This document shows positions 30,860 to 46,861 of a stretch of 64,000 bases of DNA, piece after piece. Under the pieces are notes generated by a model. That model had not been told where the DNA came from. It searched no databases and saw only the letters and a list, made by a program, of their open reading frames with translations. Within the stretch, counting starts at the first letter, position 1; every line of letters begins with the position of its first letter. The stretch comes from an uncultured Gammaproteobacteria bacterium. GTDB lineage: Bacteria > Pseudomonadota > Gammaproteobacteria > Pseudomonadales > Pseudohongiellaceae. The translations under genes and the position numbers were made by a program. The stretch lies in contig CAIOZF010000235.1 in the NCBI GenBank assembly GCA_903862645.1, positions 55,599 to 119,598 on the forward strand. Direction: 5' to 3'.

Positions 30860-32035
30860 ATGTTTGAATTAGTCGATAGTATTCCGCAGAACGCAGTTAT
30901 CAAGGTGATTGGTGTAGGCGGTGGCGGCGGCAACGCGGTGCGTCACATGATTGCCAGCCATGTCGAAGGCGTTGAATTCGTCGGTGCCAATACAGACGCT
31001 CAGGCCTTGAACAATTTGCGAGCCAAGACACTGCTGCAGATGGGCAGCTGTATCACCAAGGGACTAGGTGCTGGAGCCAATCCCGAGATCGGTCGTCAGG
31101 CCGCGCTGGAAGATCGCGACGAGATCGCACAAATACTCGCGGGGGCAGACATGGTCTTCATCACTGCGGGTATGGGGGGGGGGACTGGAACTGGTGCCGC
31201 ACCGATCTTCGCAGAAGTAGCCAGAGAATTGGGTATTCTGACGGTGGCTGTGGTCACCAAACCATTCCCGTTCGAAGGCAAGAAGCGCGCAAAAGTTGCA
31301 GAAGAAGGAATCCGTGCGCTGTCTGAACACGTCGACTCACTGATTACCATTCCGAATGAAAAACTTCTGTCTGTCCTTGGCAAGGACGCATCACTTCTGG
31401 ATGCCTTCAAGGCCGCCAACGATGTGCTGCTCGGCGCAGTGAAGGGCATCGCCGATTTGATCATGCGTCCTGGCATGATCAACGTGGACTTTGCCGACGT
31501 GCGCACCGTGATGTCGGAGATGGGCATGGCGATGATGGGAACCGGTTACGCCTCTGGTGTGGGGCGTGCGCGTGAGGCCGCAGAGGCCGCCATACGCAGC
31601 CCGCTGCTGGAGGATGTCAATCTGCATGGCGCACGCGGCATTCTGGTCAATATCACTGCGGGTGAGAATTTGTCGCTCGGCGAGTTCACCGAAGTGGGTG
31701 ACACCATCGAGGAATTTGCGTCTGACGATGCGACCGTCGTGGTTGGCACAGTTATAGATCCAGACATGGGCGACGAAATTCGCGTTACCGTAGTGGCGAC
31801 CGGTCTGGGCTTGCGCGCCGCTGCCGCTGTTGCACCGGTCAAAATGGTTGAGGCTGTGCTAGCTCCCAAAGCTGTTGTGACTGACTACCGACAGCTGGAT
31901 CGTCCGGTGGGCATGAGGACTCGTCCTGCTTCTGCGCACACGATGCCCCAGACCGGTCTGGCCCGTGCAGTGGGTTCGGATACCGATATGGACTATCTGG
32001 ATATTCCCGCATTCCTGCGTCGTCAGGCGGATTGA
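30860..32035 (+). CDS. ftsZ: Cell division protein FtsZ
   Basis: Tubulin signature [11 protein letters not shown]-terminal [14 protein letters not shown]. Confidence 0.98.
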
Positions 32036-32162
32036 TTGCCCGGGTTGCTCCGGAGCTTTCCGGTTGCAAGATTGGGTTATTACATGACCTTTGCAATCAT
32101 CCGGCCTGCGCTGGAGTGGCTGGACAGGCAGGCATCACACTAAAACGGGAAAGATGACATTT

Positions 32163-33074
32163 ATGCTAAATCAAAGAACCTTGAAGAACGTGATCAGAGC
32201 TACTGGCGTGGGCCTGCACACCGGTGAGAAAGTCTATCTGACGCTGAAGCCTGCGCCTGTTGACACCGGGATCGTCTTCATCCGCACGGATCTCGATCCG
32301 ATGGTGGAGATCCCGGCCAAGGCCGTTTATGTAGGAGACACCACCCTTTCCACGACCCTCGTCAAAGATGATGTCCGAATTTCCACAATCGAACACCTGA
32401 TGTCTGCCATGTCCGGACTCGGCATTGACAACGCTTATATCGAAGTGAGTGCTCCGGAGGTGCCGATCATGGATGGCAGTGCCGGCCCATTCGTGTTCCT
32501 GATTCAGTCCGCTGGTATCGAAGAGCAGTCAGCACTCAAGAAATTCATTCGCATCAAGAAGACCGTGCGCTTGGATGATGGTGACAAATCGGTGAGTTTG
32601 GAGCCTTTCGACGGGTTCAAGGTCAGCTACACACTGCTGTACGATCACCCCGTCTACCGCAAGTACACCAAGACGGCGAGCGTGGATTTCTCCAGCACTT
32701 CTTTCGTCAAGGAAGTCAGTCGTGCCCGTACTTTCGGATTCATGCATGAGTTTGATGAGTTGCGTAATCGCAACCTGGCCCTGGGTGCCAGCATGCACAA
32801 TGCCATTGCAGTAGGGGATTACAAAGTGCTGAACGAGGACGGTCTGCGCTACGAAGACGAGTTTGTAAAGCACAAGATTCTGGATTCCATCGGTGATCTT
32901 TACCTGTCCGGCCACAGTCTGATCGGTGAGTTCAAAGGATATAAATCTGGACACGCCCTGAATAATGCATTATTAAGAGCGCTGGAAGTAAATAAAGACG
33001 CCTGGGAAATTGTCAGTTTCGATACTGATGTGAACGTACCTATTTCCTACATGAAACCCGTATTGGCAGCCTGA
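32163..33074 (+). CDS. lpxC: UDP-3-O-acyl-N-acetylglucosamine deacetylase LpxC
   Basis: [35 protein letters not shown]; start at 32163. Confidence 0.97.
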
Positions 33075-39434: not shown

Positions 39435-39870
39435 CTCTGACGACAGGCTTTTTGAGGATACTGTTTTGCAGGGCATTGGTGAGGAGCGCTCTTCAGGCCG
39501 GTTTGGTTGCCGTGGGCAGCGTTGTTCTCGGTGCTAGTGCTTTGGCAGATCAGGCGCGAATGGTTGAGGAGTCAGTCCTGGTAGAGGCCAATCCCAAGGC
39601 CGAGGAACCGGCTTTCAGGGCGCACTACCAATCCGGCAGCGGCTGGGAAGTCACCAGTCCAACCTATATTGACACGGTGGTAGTAGTCTTCGATTTTGGA
39701 ACCACCAAGTCAGTCAGTCAGGCCGTCATCTGACAGCAGCGGGGCAATGCTGATTGCTACCGATGGGGCGCTCTATTACTTCGATGCCGCGCAACATGGA
39801 CTTCTGAAGAGCTATCCGCCGGGGTTTCCAGCGGGCGAGGTGGTAAAGCAGATACGGCCATCAATGGACG
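39435..39870 (+). pseudogene. Possible remnant of an exported protein, split across two frames
   Basis: Frame 2 ORF (39335..39733) contains a plausible signal peptide (ALVRSALQAGLVAVGSVVLGASALADQ); frame 0 ORF continues from about 39696 (AMLIATDGALYYFDAAQHGLLKSYPPGF) and runs into antisense yacG; no family recognised. Confidence 0.25.
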
Positions 39871-39874
39871 GGGT

Positions 39875-40719: not shown

Positions 40720-41619
40720 TCAAGGGACCATGCTGGAAATATAAAGTCCGGTCAGCACATCGCCCCACATCAGCGAGATGAAACCGGCGCCCGCCAGATA
40801 AGGGCCGAAGGGAATCGGAATACTGCGGTCGCGACCGCGGAAAACCAACAAACCGATGCCGACGATGGCTCCTACCAGCGAGGACAGGATAACAATCAGC
40901 AGAAGACTCTTCCATCCCATCCATGCCCCCAGTGCTGCGAGTAATTTGAAGTCACCATAGCCCATGCCTTCTTTGCCCGTCAGCAGCTTGAATGCCCAGT
41001 ACAGAGACCACAGAGACAGATAGCCGAAGATCGCTCCCAGCACGGCATCGGCCGCTGGCACGGTCGATTCTGGCAGCAGGGTGTTGACCAGCAGGCCCAG
41101 CCAGAGCAGTGGGAGGGTGATATTGTCCGGCAACAGTTGATGATCGAAATCGATCATTGTCAGAGCGATCAGGCACCAGGTAAGCACGAGCGCACTCAGC
41201 GTGAACCACGTGGCACCAAAATGCCAGGCGACGAATCCGGACAGCAGCCCTGTGACCAGTTCGATGATGGGGTAACGCATGGAAATGGGCTTTTGGCAGC
41301 CAGCGCATCTGCCACGCAACAGCAGGTAACTGATGATTGGAATATTCTGCCAGGCGCGCACAGAGGCGTTGCACTGCGGGCAGTGCGAATCGGGCTTCAC
41401 CAGATTGAACACTTTGTGCATGGAGGTAGGGTCATCCTTCCTGAACTTCTGCTCGTCCAACTCAAGAAATTCACAGCACTGCTGCCGCCATTCGCGCTGC
41501 AGCATCACTGGAATTCGATAGATCACCACGTTCAGAAAACTGCCGACCGTTAAACCGAGGACGATGGAAAGCGCAATCAATACGGTGGTGTTACTGGCAA
41601 TAAGTTCTAGCACTGTCAT
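40720..41619 (-). CDS. pilD: Type IV prepilin peptidase / N-methyltransferase PilD
   Basis: CPQCN..CAGCQ zinc motif, GYGDFKLLAALGAWMG catalytic motif. Confidence 0.96.
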   Translation of the reverse strand: MTVLELIASNTTVLIALSIVLGLTVGSFLNVVIYRIPVMLQREWRQQCCEFLELDEQKFRKDDPTSMHKVFNLVKPDSHCPQCNASVRAWQNIPIISYLLLRGRCAGCQKPISMRYPIIELVTGLLSGFVAWHFGATWFTLSALVLTWCLIALTMIDFDHQLLPDNITLPLLWLGLLVNTLLPESTVPAADAVLGAIFGYLSLWSLYWAFKLLTGKEGMGYGDFKLLAALGAWMGWKSLLLIVILSSLVGAIVGIGLLVFRGRDRSIPIPFGPYLAGAGFISLMWGDVLTGLYISSMVP

Positions 41620-41640: not shown

Positions 41641-42870
41641 TCATACGACCTGTCCGAGCTGGAAGATTGGCAGGTACATCGCGATCATTAGGCCTCCGAT
41701 CAGCGTGCCCAGCACCGACATGATGAGTGGCTCCATGAGGGAGGTCAAACCATCCACGGCATTGTCAACTTCTGCCTCATAATACGTTGCGCACTTGTCG
41801 AGCATTCCGTCAAGCGCACCTGATTCTTCGCCGATGCCAACCATCTGGGTGATCATGACGGGGAACAGGCCGGTGGTTCTAATGGCGAAATTGAGTTGCT
41901 GGCCCGAGCTGACATCGTCCTTGATCTTCCTGGTCGCGGTTGAGTAGACAATATTGCCGGTTGCTCCCGCCACCGATTCGAGTGCCTCGACGAGCGGAAC
42001 TCCGGCGGCAAACGTGGTGGAGAGGGTGCGTGTAAAGCGGGCGTAGCAGGATTTTTCGACGATGGGACCGATAATTGGCAGCTTCAGGGCCAGTTGATCC
42101 ACCGCATTGGCGAAGCCCTTTGACCGCAGCTTGGCTTCCTTGAAGGCATAGCCGGCGATGACCAGCAGGATAATGACCTTCCACCAGTGTGCGATGGCAA
42201 TATCGGACAACCCTAGTACGAACAGTGTAAATGCCGGCAGATCAGCGCCAAAGTTGGAGAAGGTCTCTGCGAACTGCGGTACGACCTTGACCAGCAGGAT
42301 GCCGGTCACGACGAGGGCGACCACCACGACTGCGATCGGATAATTCATAGCTTTCTTGATCTTGGACTTGAGCGCTTCAGTCTTCTCTTTATAAGTGGCG
42401 ACGCGATCCAGCATGGTTTCGAGTGCACCGGATTGTTCGCCGGATTCCACCAGGTTGCAGAACAGTTCGTCAAAATAGCGTGGATGCTTGCGAATGGAGT
42501 CAGCAAAGTTGTTGCCTGCGGCGACATCATCGCGCACCGAACGCACCAGCTCCGCCATTGATGCGTTCTCAAGGCTGTCGCCGACTATCTCGAAAGATTG
42601 CACCAAAGGGATACCGGCCTTCATCATGGTCGCCAGTTGACGGCTGAAAATCGCTATGTCTCCAGGCGTGATCTTCTGTTTCCTAGGCCCAAACAGGTCT
42701 TTGGGCTTGCGTTTGATCTTGGTGGCAATTACGCCTTGCTTGCGCAGCTGAGCCTTCACCAGGGCCTGACTGGCCCCCGGCATCTCGCCCTTGGTCTTCT
42801 TACCGTGCTTGTCCGTGCCAAACCATAGATATATGGTTTGATTGGAAGGAGAGGGTGCTTGAGCTGCCAT
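41641..42870 (-). CDS. pilC: Type IV pilus inner-membrane platform protein PilC
   Basis: T2SSF family; IAIFSRQLATMMKAGIPLVQSFEIV. Confidence 0.96.
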   Translation of the reverse strand: MAAQAPSPSNQTIYLWFGTDKHGKKTKGEMPGASQALVKAQLRKQGVIATKIKRKPKDLFGPRKQKITPGDIAIFSRQLATMMKAGIPLVQSFEIVGDSLENASMAELVRSVRDDVAAGNNFADSIRKHPRYFDELFCNLVESGEQSGALETMLDRVATYKEKTEALKSKIKKAMNYPIAVVVVALVVTGILLVKVVPQFAETFSNFGADLPAFTLFVLGLSDIAIAHWWKVIILLVIAGYAFKEAKLRSKGFANAVDQLALKLPIIGPIVEKSCYARFTRTLSTTFAAGVPLVEALESVAGATGNIVYSTATRKIKDDVSSGQQLNFAIRTTGLFPVMITQMVGIGEESGALDGMLDKCATYYEAEVDNAVDGLTSLMEPLIMSVLGTLIGGLMIAMYLPIFQLGQVV

Positions 42871-42915: not shown

Positions 42916-44616
42916 TCAGGTGACGCGATTCGCTTCTTCCAGACTGGTCAAACCATTCGCCACCTTCAGCAGCGCGGATTGCCGAAGGCTGTTGAAGCCC
43001 TCCTTGCGCGCCTGGTCGGCAATCTCGATCGAGTTGCCATCCTGCATGATAATACGCGAAATGCCATCGGTGATGGGAACCACTTCATAGATTCCCAGTC
43101 TGCCCTTATAACCTTCATTGCAGGCGTCACACCCAACCTGGCTGAAGAGTCCTAATCCTGGCAGTTGCTCCGGAGTGAAACCGGCGTCAAGCAGTACCTT
43201 TTCAGGAAGCTTCAGTGGCACCTTGCAGTGATTGCACAGGCGTCGACAGAGACGCTGGGCGATGATCAGTGTGACCGATGTGGCTACATTGAAGGAGGGG
43301 ATGCCCATGTTGCGCAGGCGTGTCAGGGTTTCCGGCGCACTGTTGGTGTGCAGGGTCGACAGCACCAGATGACCGGTTTGAGCGGCCTTGATGGCAATCT
43401 CGGCGGTCTCGAGATCACGTATCTCGCCGACCATGATGACGTCAGGGTCCTGCCGCAGGAAGGCGCGCAGGGCCATGGCGAAGGTGAGGCCGATTTTGAC
43501 ATTGACTGGCACCTGGTTGATGCCTTCCAGATTGATTTCCACCGGATCTTCCGCGGTGGAGATATTGGTCTCCGGTGTATTGAGGATATTCAGTCCCGTG
43601 TACAGGGAGACTGTTTTGCCACTACCGGTCGGTCCTGTGACCAGAATCATGCCTTGACTCTGTTGCAGTGCGTTTAGGAAGAATTTCTTTTGACTCTCTT
43701 CGTAACCCAGAGCGTCTATCCCTAACTGCACGCTGCCAGGATCCAGAATCCTCAAGACAATTTTCTCGCCCCAGAGTGTAGGCAGGGAGTTGACGCGAAA
43801 GTCGATGGCTCTGGTCCTGGAGACCTTCATTTTAATGCGACCGTCCTGGGGCAGCCGTCGTTCCGAGATGTCCATCTGCGACATGATCTTCAGGCGCGAG
43901 GCTATGCGATTGGCGATGTTCAGGGGAGGCCTTGCAATTTCCTTGAGGATGCCATCGGTACGGAAACGAATGCGGTAGGTTTTTTCGTACGGTTCGACGT
44001 GAATATCAGAGGCGCCAGTGCGTATGGCGTCGAGAAGTACCTTGTTGACGAAACGCACAATCGGAGTTTCATCTGCGGCATCGACAGCATCCCGCGAGGA
44101 ATCTTCGGAGTGGGCCAGTTCGATGTTCAGGCTTTCGAGCTCTGCCTCATCCAGCAAGCCGAGCAGCGCATCGCTTCCTTCCATTTGCTCAATGACCAAC
44201 TCTATGGCCGGTGACAGCTTGTTCTCGTCCACGATGATGACGTCGGTGCTCAATCCGGTATGGAACTTGACCTCGTCGAAAGCGCTGATATTCGTAGGGT
44301 CAGAGGCGGCCAGAAATAGGCGATTGGCGCGTCGGAACAATGGCAGTACGCGGTGCTTGCGCAGCAGTTTGGGATCAACCAGATCCCTTGGGCATTGCCG
44401 CAGGTCAAAGGCTGAGAGATCCAACAGCGGTGCGCCAAATTCCTCGGAAGCCGCCATCGCGATACGGCCGGAGTCGGCAATTTTGTGCTTCACCAGATGT
44501 GTGACGAATGGAATCTTGTCATTACGCGCGAGCCGTAACGCCTCCTCGGCCTGTGTCTCAGTCAACAGACCGTCAATTACGAGTCGTTTAGCAAGGCCGC
44601 TGATGGTAATAGACAT
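42916..44616 (-). CDS. pilB: Type IV pilus assembly ATPase PilB
   Basis: Walker A GPTGSGKTVSLYT, RDPDVIMVGEIRD, tetracysteine CNHC..CDAC. Confidence 0.97.
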   Translation of the reverse strand: MSITISGLAKRLVIDGLLTETQAEEALRLARNDKIPFVTHLVKHKIADSGRIAMAASEEFGAPLLDLSAFDLRQCPRDLVDPKLLRKHRVLPLFRRANRLFLAASDPTNISAFDEVKFHTGLSTDVIIVDENKLSPAIELVIEQMEGSDALLGLLDEAELESLNIELAHSEDSSRDAVDAADETPIVRFVNKVLLDAIRTGASDIHVEPYEKTYRIRFRTDGILKEIARPPLNIANRIASRLKIMSQMDISERRLPQDGRIKMKVSRTRAIDFRVNSLPTLWGEKIVLRILDPGSVQLGIDALGYEESQKKFFLNALQQSQGMILVTGPTGSGKTVSLYTGLNILNTPETNISTAEDPVEINLEGINQVPVNVKIGLTFAMALRAFLRQDPDVIMVGEIRDLETAEIAIKAAQTGHLVLSTLHTNSAPETLTRLRNMGIPSFNVATSVTLIIAQRLCRRLCNHCKVPLKLPEKVLLDAGFTPEQLPGLGLFSQVGCDACNEGYKGRLGIYEVVPITDGISRIIMQDGNSIEIADQARKEGFNSLRQSALLKVANGLTSLEEANRVT

Positions 44617-45028: not shown

Positions 45029-45489
45029 ATGAAGATGAATACCCAGAAGCAGCAAGGTTTTACACTTATCGAATTGATGATTGTAGTAGCTATCATTGGC
45101 ATCCTGGCTTTACATTAATCGAGCTCATGATCGTGGTGGCGATCATTGGTATTCTCGCTGCGGTCGCCATGCCGGCCTATCAGACCTATACACAGCGTGC
45201 CCGCTTCAGCGAAGTCATTCTGGCGACGACGCCTTTCAAGACAGCGCTTGGCCTTGCAATTCAAAGCGGCCGGATTACAGCTCTGGCTGGAGCTGACTCC
45301 GGTACCAATGGTATCCCCCCAGCCCTGGGTGCCAGTGGCTGGCTCGCCTCTGCGGTGGTTGACGAAGGTGTCATCATTGCTATCGGCACGGCTGACGTGG
45401 ATAGCCACACCTATACCTTGACTCCCTCGTTGACGCCGCCGGTGCAATGGACTGAGGGCGGCACCTGTGTCGACGTGGGATTGTGCTAA
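45029..45489 (+). pseudogene. pilA: Type IV pilin gene disrupted by a double, out-of-frame N-terminus
   Basis: AAGGAG SD, then [29 protein letters not shown] (45029..45118); a second prepilin motif starts at 45106 in another frame: [37 protein letters not shown]...CVDVGLC* (ends 45489). Confidence 0.85.
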
Positions 45490-45524: not shown

Positions 45525-46227
45525 ATGATTCCCAGCACCGTTCAGATCTCCAATCGGTTCACGGCCACGGTAGTGCATTTCTTCATCAGCCTGGTCGTTT
45601 TTGTTGCTTTGATCGGCATACTCCTGTTTTCCTGGTATCCCAGTCCCTACTTTTCCGCCTCCGGTGGCTGGCAAGGTCTGCGTCTTGTCGCTGCCGTGGA
45701 TCTGGTATTGGGAACCCTGATGACATTGATTATCTTCAATCCGCAGAAGTCCAGGCGGGAGCTGGCCGTTGACCCTTGTGTTTCTCGACAGCAGCTTTTA
45801 TCGCGTTCCAGCGCTTGCAATTACCAGCCAGGGAATCGATCTCGATGTGCTGAATCCTTTTGGAGAAGAACGCCCTGTTCTGGTCTTCGCCGAACGACCG
45901 AAGGAAGAGGGCGAAGACTTTGCACGCTTTGTCACGGTCATCCGTGAGCAACGTGTTCCCCCACACGAACAAGCTTGGCTTTATCGCTCCTAGTCTGACA
46001 ACTTTTCGACCGTCGTCAGGTCTACGTTGGACACTGAGGAAATTGTGACCACCAACGCCGCCATGAGCACTGAACTGGAACGATTGCTGGTGCGTATCCA
46101 ATCTGAAATGCAAGAAAACTACTATCTTGCATTGACTTCACGCTACCGCAATATTGTGCTGGTATTCGACGTTGCGGGTTACGTGCTGGGCAGTATCAGT
46201 GCCCCGTACAAGACTGGAGAGCTCTGA
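45525..46227 (+). pseudogene. TfpX/TfpZ-like type IV pilin accessory protein, apparently degraded
   Basis: N-terminal TM part (MIPSTVQISNRFTATVVHFFISLVVFVALIGILLFSWYP...NPQKSRRELAVD) in frame 0, then frame 1 (TLVFLDSSFYRVPAL...HEQAWLYRS), in-frame TAG at 45991, then SDNFSTVVRSTLDTEEIV...YRNIVLVFDVAGYVLGSI in the same frame. Confidence 0.6.
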
Positions 46228-46459: not shown

Positions 46460-46861
46460 ATGAAAAATGTAAGACTCTCAATCGCGACAATCATGACAGC
46501 AATACTGACGAGTGCCGCTTGTGCCGATGCCGGTGCAGCACCGACTTCTCTTGGTGCTGGCGTGTACTCAAAAGAGCAGGCCGAAATTGGCAAAGCGGTT
46601 TTCAGCCAGAATTGTTCAAGCTGTCACAACGCCGACTACTACAAGACTGTGCTGCAAACCTGGCGCGGACAGCCAATGACCTATCTGTTCGAGCAGGTCA
46701 TGAGTGCAATGCCTGCCGACAAACCCGGTGCATTGCTGGAAACTGAATACGAAGATGCGTTTGCTTATATTTTTGAGATGGTTGGTTTCCCAGCTGGTGA
46801 GACCCGCTTGGAATACGCCAATGGCATGATGGACGACATTTCTCTGGAGCCGGCTCCGTAA
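46460..46861 (+). CDS. Small exported c-type cytochrome
   Basis: Signal peptide, FSQNCSSCHNADYY haem motif, downstream Met residues. Confidence 0.8.
   Translation: MKNVRLSIATIMTAILTSAACADAGAAPTSLGAGVYSKEQAEIGKAVFSQNCSSCHNADYYKTVLQTWRGQPMTYLFEQVMSAMPADKPGALLETEYEDAFAYIFEMVGFPAGETRLEYANGMMDDISLEPAP

Follow-up and report, generated by a model that had tools for sequence, protein, structure and literature searches.

A type IVa pilus cannot be assembled if the prepilin is incomplete, and it depends on full-length PilM and PilQ for its alignment complex and its outer-membrane pore. Assembly of the cognate pilin is known to be promoted by an accessory protein in Pseudomonas aeruginosa, and the TfpY-like proteins, which possess three membrane helices and are absent from the fibre, are proposed to deliver the first major pilin to the complex of minor pilins (PMC11841053). 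Pilus and competence genes also become pseudogenes in natural strains: natural genomes of Legionella and Acinetobacter have been scored for disrupted competence genes (PMC11472951). The window analysed here is a stretch of 64,000 nucleotides belonging to a genome of 3.1 Mb (254 contigs, 95% complete). The feature at positions 45525–46227 of this window is most probably a pseudogene that once encoded a type IV pilin accessory protein of the TfpX/TfpY/TfpZ-like kind, left within a recent loss of the whole pilus. Translation resolves the tfpZ-like gene into three pieces, all on the + strand of the window between 45525 and 46227, which are separated by two lesions as follows.

45525..45765, + strand: 5' piece of the tfpZ-like pseudogene, containing TM helices 1 and 2, up to ...KSRREL; matched by NF041437 and aligned with intact congeners
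45764..45766, + strand: junction of a 77-bp deletion, with ~26 residues gone and the frame changed; alignment with G009, G011 and G013
~45766..45990, + strand: middle piece of the tfpZ-like pseudogene in the shifted frame; 64–67% identity to sister species over 72 codons
45991..45993, + strand: in-frame TAG stop in the tfpZ-like gene; a sense codon in all aligned intact congeners
45994..46227, + strand: 3' piece of the tfpZ-like pseudogene to the natural stop; 70–74% identity to sister species over 77 codons

The 5' piece, in the frame of 45525, reads MIPSTVQ...NPQKSRREL and begins MIPSTVQISNRF. One frame on, the middle piece reads TLVFLDSSFYRVPAL...HEQAWLYRS and ends at the TAG of 45991–45993, and the 3' piece keeps the frame of the middle piece to finish with ...SISAPYKTGEL and a stop at 46225–46227. 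The first 84 residues match the NCBIfam TfpX/TfpZ model NF041437 through residues 11–82 (E=6.5e-18, 65 bits). No family was matched by the middle and 3' pieces when these were searched alone; together they correspond to residues 100–251 of the intact gene of a congener with 68% identity and one stop. Intact orthologues of 251–258 aa occupy the same position in nine congeners, the copy of a tenth running off its contig, and their proteins align with nearly the whole of the model at 135–147 bits (E 4e-39 to 7e-43). The curated cut-off of NF041437 is 200 bits and lies above both the window piece and the intact congener proteins; the name TfpX/TfpZ-like was therefore chosen, since these proteins are related to the model yet score under its cut-off. 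Chance similarity is excluded because all three pieces are collinear with and similar to the intact gene and the gene order is conserved.

In the alignment with the three sister species the frame switch coincides with a single gap of exactly 77 bp, the ends of which have ~2 bp (GG) in common. A structure model of the intact protein of G009, of modest confidence (mean pLDDT 64), and its hydropathy indicate three N-terminal helices at residues 2–30, 40–63 and 70–98 followed by strands and helices, the latter part being predicted to fold as a mixed beta domain and then a helix leading into a three-stranded sheet. On this model the 77-bp deletion would amount to the loss of the third N-terminal TM helix (70–98). 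Three TM helices joined to a periplasmic alpha/beta domain were found only in the intact congener, the window copy being without helix 3. The gene carries truncating lesions relative to intact orthologues and has no intact second copy, as expected of a pseudogene, and no Rfam match to a structured RNA was obtained at the pilin/tfpZ locus. The preliminary description had recognized a TfpX/TfpZ-like accessory gene next to the broken pilin gene, with a frame change near 45765, some 25–30 residues missing at the switch and a TAG at 45991–45993 followed by the same frame, and had counted two independent-looking lesions. All of this is borne out: the gene by the NF041437 match and the intact orthologues at the same place in congeners, the homology of the joined fragments by their collinearity with the intact congener gene, and the lesions by the 77-bp deletion and the TAG seen in translation.

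The tfpZ-like remnant lies directly downstream of the remnants of two pilin genes, in a neighbourhood composed of the following genes.

45029..45118, + strand: pilA1 remnant, from the start codon through codon 27, then two foreign codons and a stop; N_methyl match, E=3.4e-11
45106..45489, + strand: pilA2 remnant, complete from GFTLIELM to the stop, without start codon and leader; 90–95% identity to pilA2 of sister species (135 aa)
42916..44616, − strand: pilB, intact, divergent from pilA1; 566 aa, 92% identity to G013
41641..42870, − strand: pilC, intact; 409 aa, 95% identity to G013
40720..41619, − strand: pilD prepilin peptidase, intact; 299 aa, 86% identity to G013
46460..46861, + strand: small cytochrome-c-like gene, intact, at the end of the pilin locus, following tfpZ in congeners; 84–90% identity to sister species

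The ancestral order of the locus, displayed by nearly all congeners that possess it, is pilB (− strand), pilA1, pilA2, tfpZ and the cytochrome gene, and the pilA1, pilA2 and tfpZ remnants of the window keep this order. Full-length pilA1 encodes ~136–143 aa in congeners. Comparison of coordinates with the congeners reveals a deletion of ~486–509 bp that places the GFTLIE motif of pilA2 directly behind codon 27 of pilA1, in the wrong frame, so that neither gene encodes a complete prepilin. A functional fused pilin was considered and rejected: the pilA2 frame is open upstream to 45028 but contains no start codon and no plausible leader. The full ORFs of pilB, pilC and pilD agree with the earlier statement that these genes are intact. 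No replacement major pilin was found among the 13 prepilin-type N-termini detected in the genome by N_methyl matches, all 13 being accounted for by the pilin locus, the type II secretion cluster and the minor-pilin clusters, and such a replacement could sit in the missing 5% of the assembly.

The preliminary description had offered active variation as a counterpart to decay. Under this reading recombination would turn the pilin module off and on, in the manner of silent pilin cassettes. Two similar tandem pilin genes supplied a substrate, coding sequence for the conserved N terminus recurs at the junction, and pilin genes are variable in other bacteria. Against this, the locus contains no long direct or inverted repeats, the deletion junctions have only ~2 bp of sequence in common at their breakpoints, and neither silent cassettes nor a homopolymer tract occur at the lesions. 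The lost pilin sequence is on no other contig, and no second or silent copy of what the pilin and accessory genes have lost was found anywhere in the genome. The second, independent stop in tfpZ and the breakage of pilM, pilQ and pilE, which are not variable antigens, also speak against switching, and this proposal found no support; we regard it as extremely improbable.

The pilM, pilQ and pilE lesions are located on two other contigs of the same genome. A 1-bp deletion causes a frameshift in pilM, pilQ contains an in-frame TGA at codon 96, and pilE has an in-frame TAG at position 124 of its 152 residues. Internal stops were absent from the matched regions of pilQ and pilE in congeners, pilE being matched in nine of them. 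At least six pilus genes (pilA1, pilA2, tfpZ, pilM, pilQ and pilE) are thus broken, at three places in the genome, and the earlier view that decay does not reach beyond the major-subunit module has to be abandoned, as the frameshifted pilM and the stops in pilQ and pilE lie elsewhere. Read-through of the stops by another genetic code was also rejected: the stops are TAG in two of the genes and TGA in another, they lie beside frameshifts and deletions, and ~210 compared genes are normal. The genes pilB, C, D, N, O, P, T, U and F, pilY1, those of other minor pilins and comEC are open; that most pilus genes remain so counts against loss of the whole machine, and, pilD aside, these genes may simply not yet have been hit.

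A gene-by-gene survey set 464 kb of this genome against 490 kb from its sister G013, giving 222 comparable genes with 232 kb of coding sequence. The survey covers ~15% of the genome, frameshifts near gene ends may escape it, and flags arising from contig edges, shadow ORFs and different start codons were set aside. About 210 of the 222 genes were clean, and every stop codon or small frameshift detected in the surveyed set fell within a pilus gene. Pilus genes represent ~5% of the surveyed coding bases yet carry all four point lesions (chance ~8e-6, which is a guide and not an exact test, the regions having been picked for holding pilus or related genes, although the denominators come from the same regions). 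The sole lesions surveyed outside pilus genes affect a biotin cluster and one gene of unknown function, both eroded. A gene of 692 codons that is intact in G013 is reduced in the window to a remnant at 39452–39872 by a ~1.5 kb deletion, a frame change and a ~0.1 kb deletion. The biotin cluster, comprising bioA, bioB, bioF and bioD in G013, persists as short scraps at G000:C182 ~31465–32962 (L103–L105). The genus comprises 14 genomes here, of which 9 have no bioB, so loss of biotin synthesis is frequent among them.

The survey bears directly on the question of whether the lesions are assembly or sequencing errors, that is, absent from the cells or created where a contig joins reads of different strains. 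The assembly is fragmented into 254 contigs, and any one lesion taken singly might be erroneous; the congener tfpZ-like gene interrupted at a run of eight C (G004) and the split pilM of G010 look like possible errors. Errors, however, would be expected at random, yet ~210 genes are clean and the stops and the small frameshift sit in pilus genes. Three of the lesions are stops in otherwise well-conserved sequence and not homopolymer slips, a k-mer assembler makes no joins at 2-bp matches, and no other contig carries the lost body of the pilin. A misassembly that put the absent pieces elsewhere was rejected, none being found in the genome. Error as the general explanation is thus very unlikely.

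The age of the losses can be read from the remnants. Pairwise dN/dS values against sister species are ~0.02 for pilA2, ~0.04 for pilQ and ~0.02 for pilM, like those of intact genes. The third piece of tfpZ gives 0.12–0.16, the same as between intact relatives, and the synonymous sites of the gene are otherwise nearly saturated, so that tfpZ dN/dS alone says nothing on relaxed selection. The low dN/dS of the remnants, in which strong purifying selection is still visible, indicates that the losses are recent relative to the split of the sister species. The nearest relatives, G009, G011 and G013, display ~75% nucleotide identity at the pilin locus.

Decay is the reading that fits, with lesions that are exact relative to intact congeners and concentrated in pilus genes. 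Judged from gene sequences, the locus in all likelihood records a recent pseudogenisation that extends across the type IV pilus system of one lineage, an ordinary gene loss involving no new mechanism, and this lineage very probably lost its type IV pili recently. One first inactivating hit would most likely have been followed by relaxed selection and further hits across the pilus genes. Lacking a major pilin, and with neither the secretin nor the PilM of the alignment complex at full length, the cell presumably could build no pilus. A TfpZ devoid of helix 3 and of the C-terminal domain could not be expected to help deliver the first major pilin to the complex of minor pilins. Retention of pilD may be explained by this genome's type II secretion system, which needs PilD.

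A variant of this explanation concerns the cause and holds that pilus loss was selected, for instance by pilus-specific phages, and did not drift in after disuse. Bacteriophages use type IV pili as receptors (PMC11841053), the losses are recent while the sequences still look conserved, and gene after gene of the same machine has been hit. One loss-of-function hit suffices for resistance, however, and the extra hits point to later relaxed selection; the biotin cluster and another gene were lost by deletions in the same genome, as in general erosion. Selection for pilus loss, for instance by such phages, appears unlikely as the cause.

Other members of the genus, which are uncultured Gammaproteobacteria, MAGs where named, and include at least two from lakes according to isolate names, also show departures at pilus genes. 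G005 (L065) contains a single pilin of a different type and has no accessory gene at the locus; pilin content therefore varies within the genus. In G004 (L062) the tfpZ-like gene is frameshifted at the run of eight C and otherwise open, reflecting an assembly error or a slippery tract, and pilU (G004:C4:122015-122725) apparently lacks ~100 residues. In G002 pilU (G002:C337:10585-11603) has an apparent frame change near residue 107. The pilA1 of G008 (L061:4258-4593) is interrupted by an in-frame TAG, after which the rest continues in the same frame, and pilM of G010 (G010:C87:2931-4045) is split into two frames near residue 186. Single pilus lesions are thus seen in four congeners: in tfpZ and pilU of G004, pilU of G002, pilA1 of G008 and pilM of G010. 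A wider proposal, that type IV pilus loss is recurrent and perhaps selected in a freshwater genus, its genes being dismantled and perhaps regained by exchange under phage pressure, is quite unlikely.

Under the preferred explanation, recent loss across the system in this lineage, two isolated pseudogenes in one window become evidence for loss of a whole machine. An early stage appears to have been caught, with most subunits open and conservation high, which is useful for following the order in which a multi-gene machine decays. The presence of pilB, pilC, pilD or pilT would be a poor guide to pili, twitching or DNA uptake in this lineage.

The system resembles the type IVa pilus system in that pilABCD, pilMNOPQ, pilT, pilU and minor pilins were all found, in the usual clusters. 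The divergent orientation of pilA and pilBCD is shared with Pseudomonas. In contrast to a type IVa pilus system, at least six genes here (pilA1, pilA2, tfpZ, pilM, pilQ and pilE) are truncated or frameshifted. The Legionella and Acinetobacter study worked within species, with many genomes and phenotypes, whereas the present case concerns one assembly of an uncultured lineage and genes alone. Compared with TfpY, TfpX and TfpZ of P. aeruginosa, the window copy is broken, the congener copies score below the curated cut-off and the congener gene follows two tandem pilins, not one. Similarly to these proteins (PMC11841053), the intact congener gene is located directly downstream of the pilin and encodes ~250 aa, and its product is predicted to comprise three N-terminal helices, a mixed beta domain and a helix leading into a three-stranded sheet; like TfpZ, the intact congener proteins match the TfpZ model over nearly its full length.
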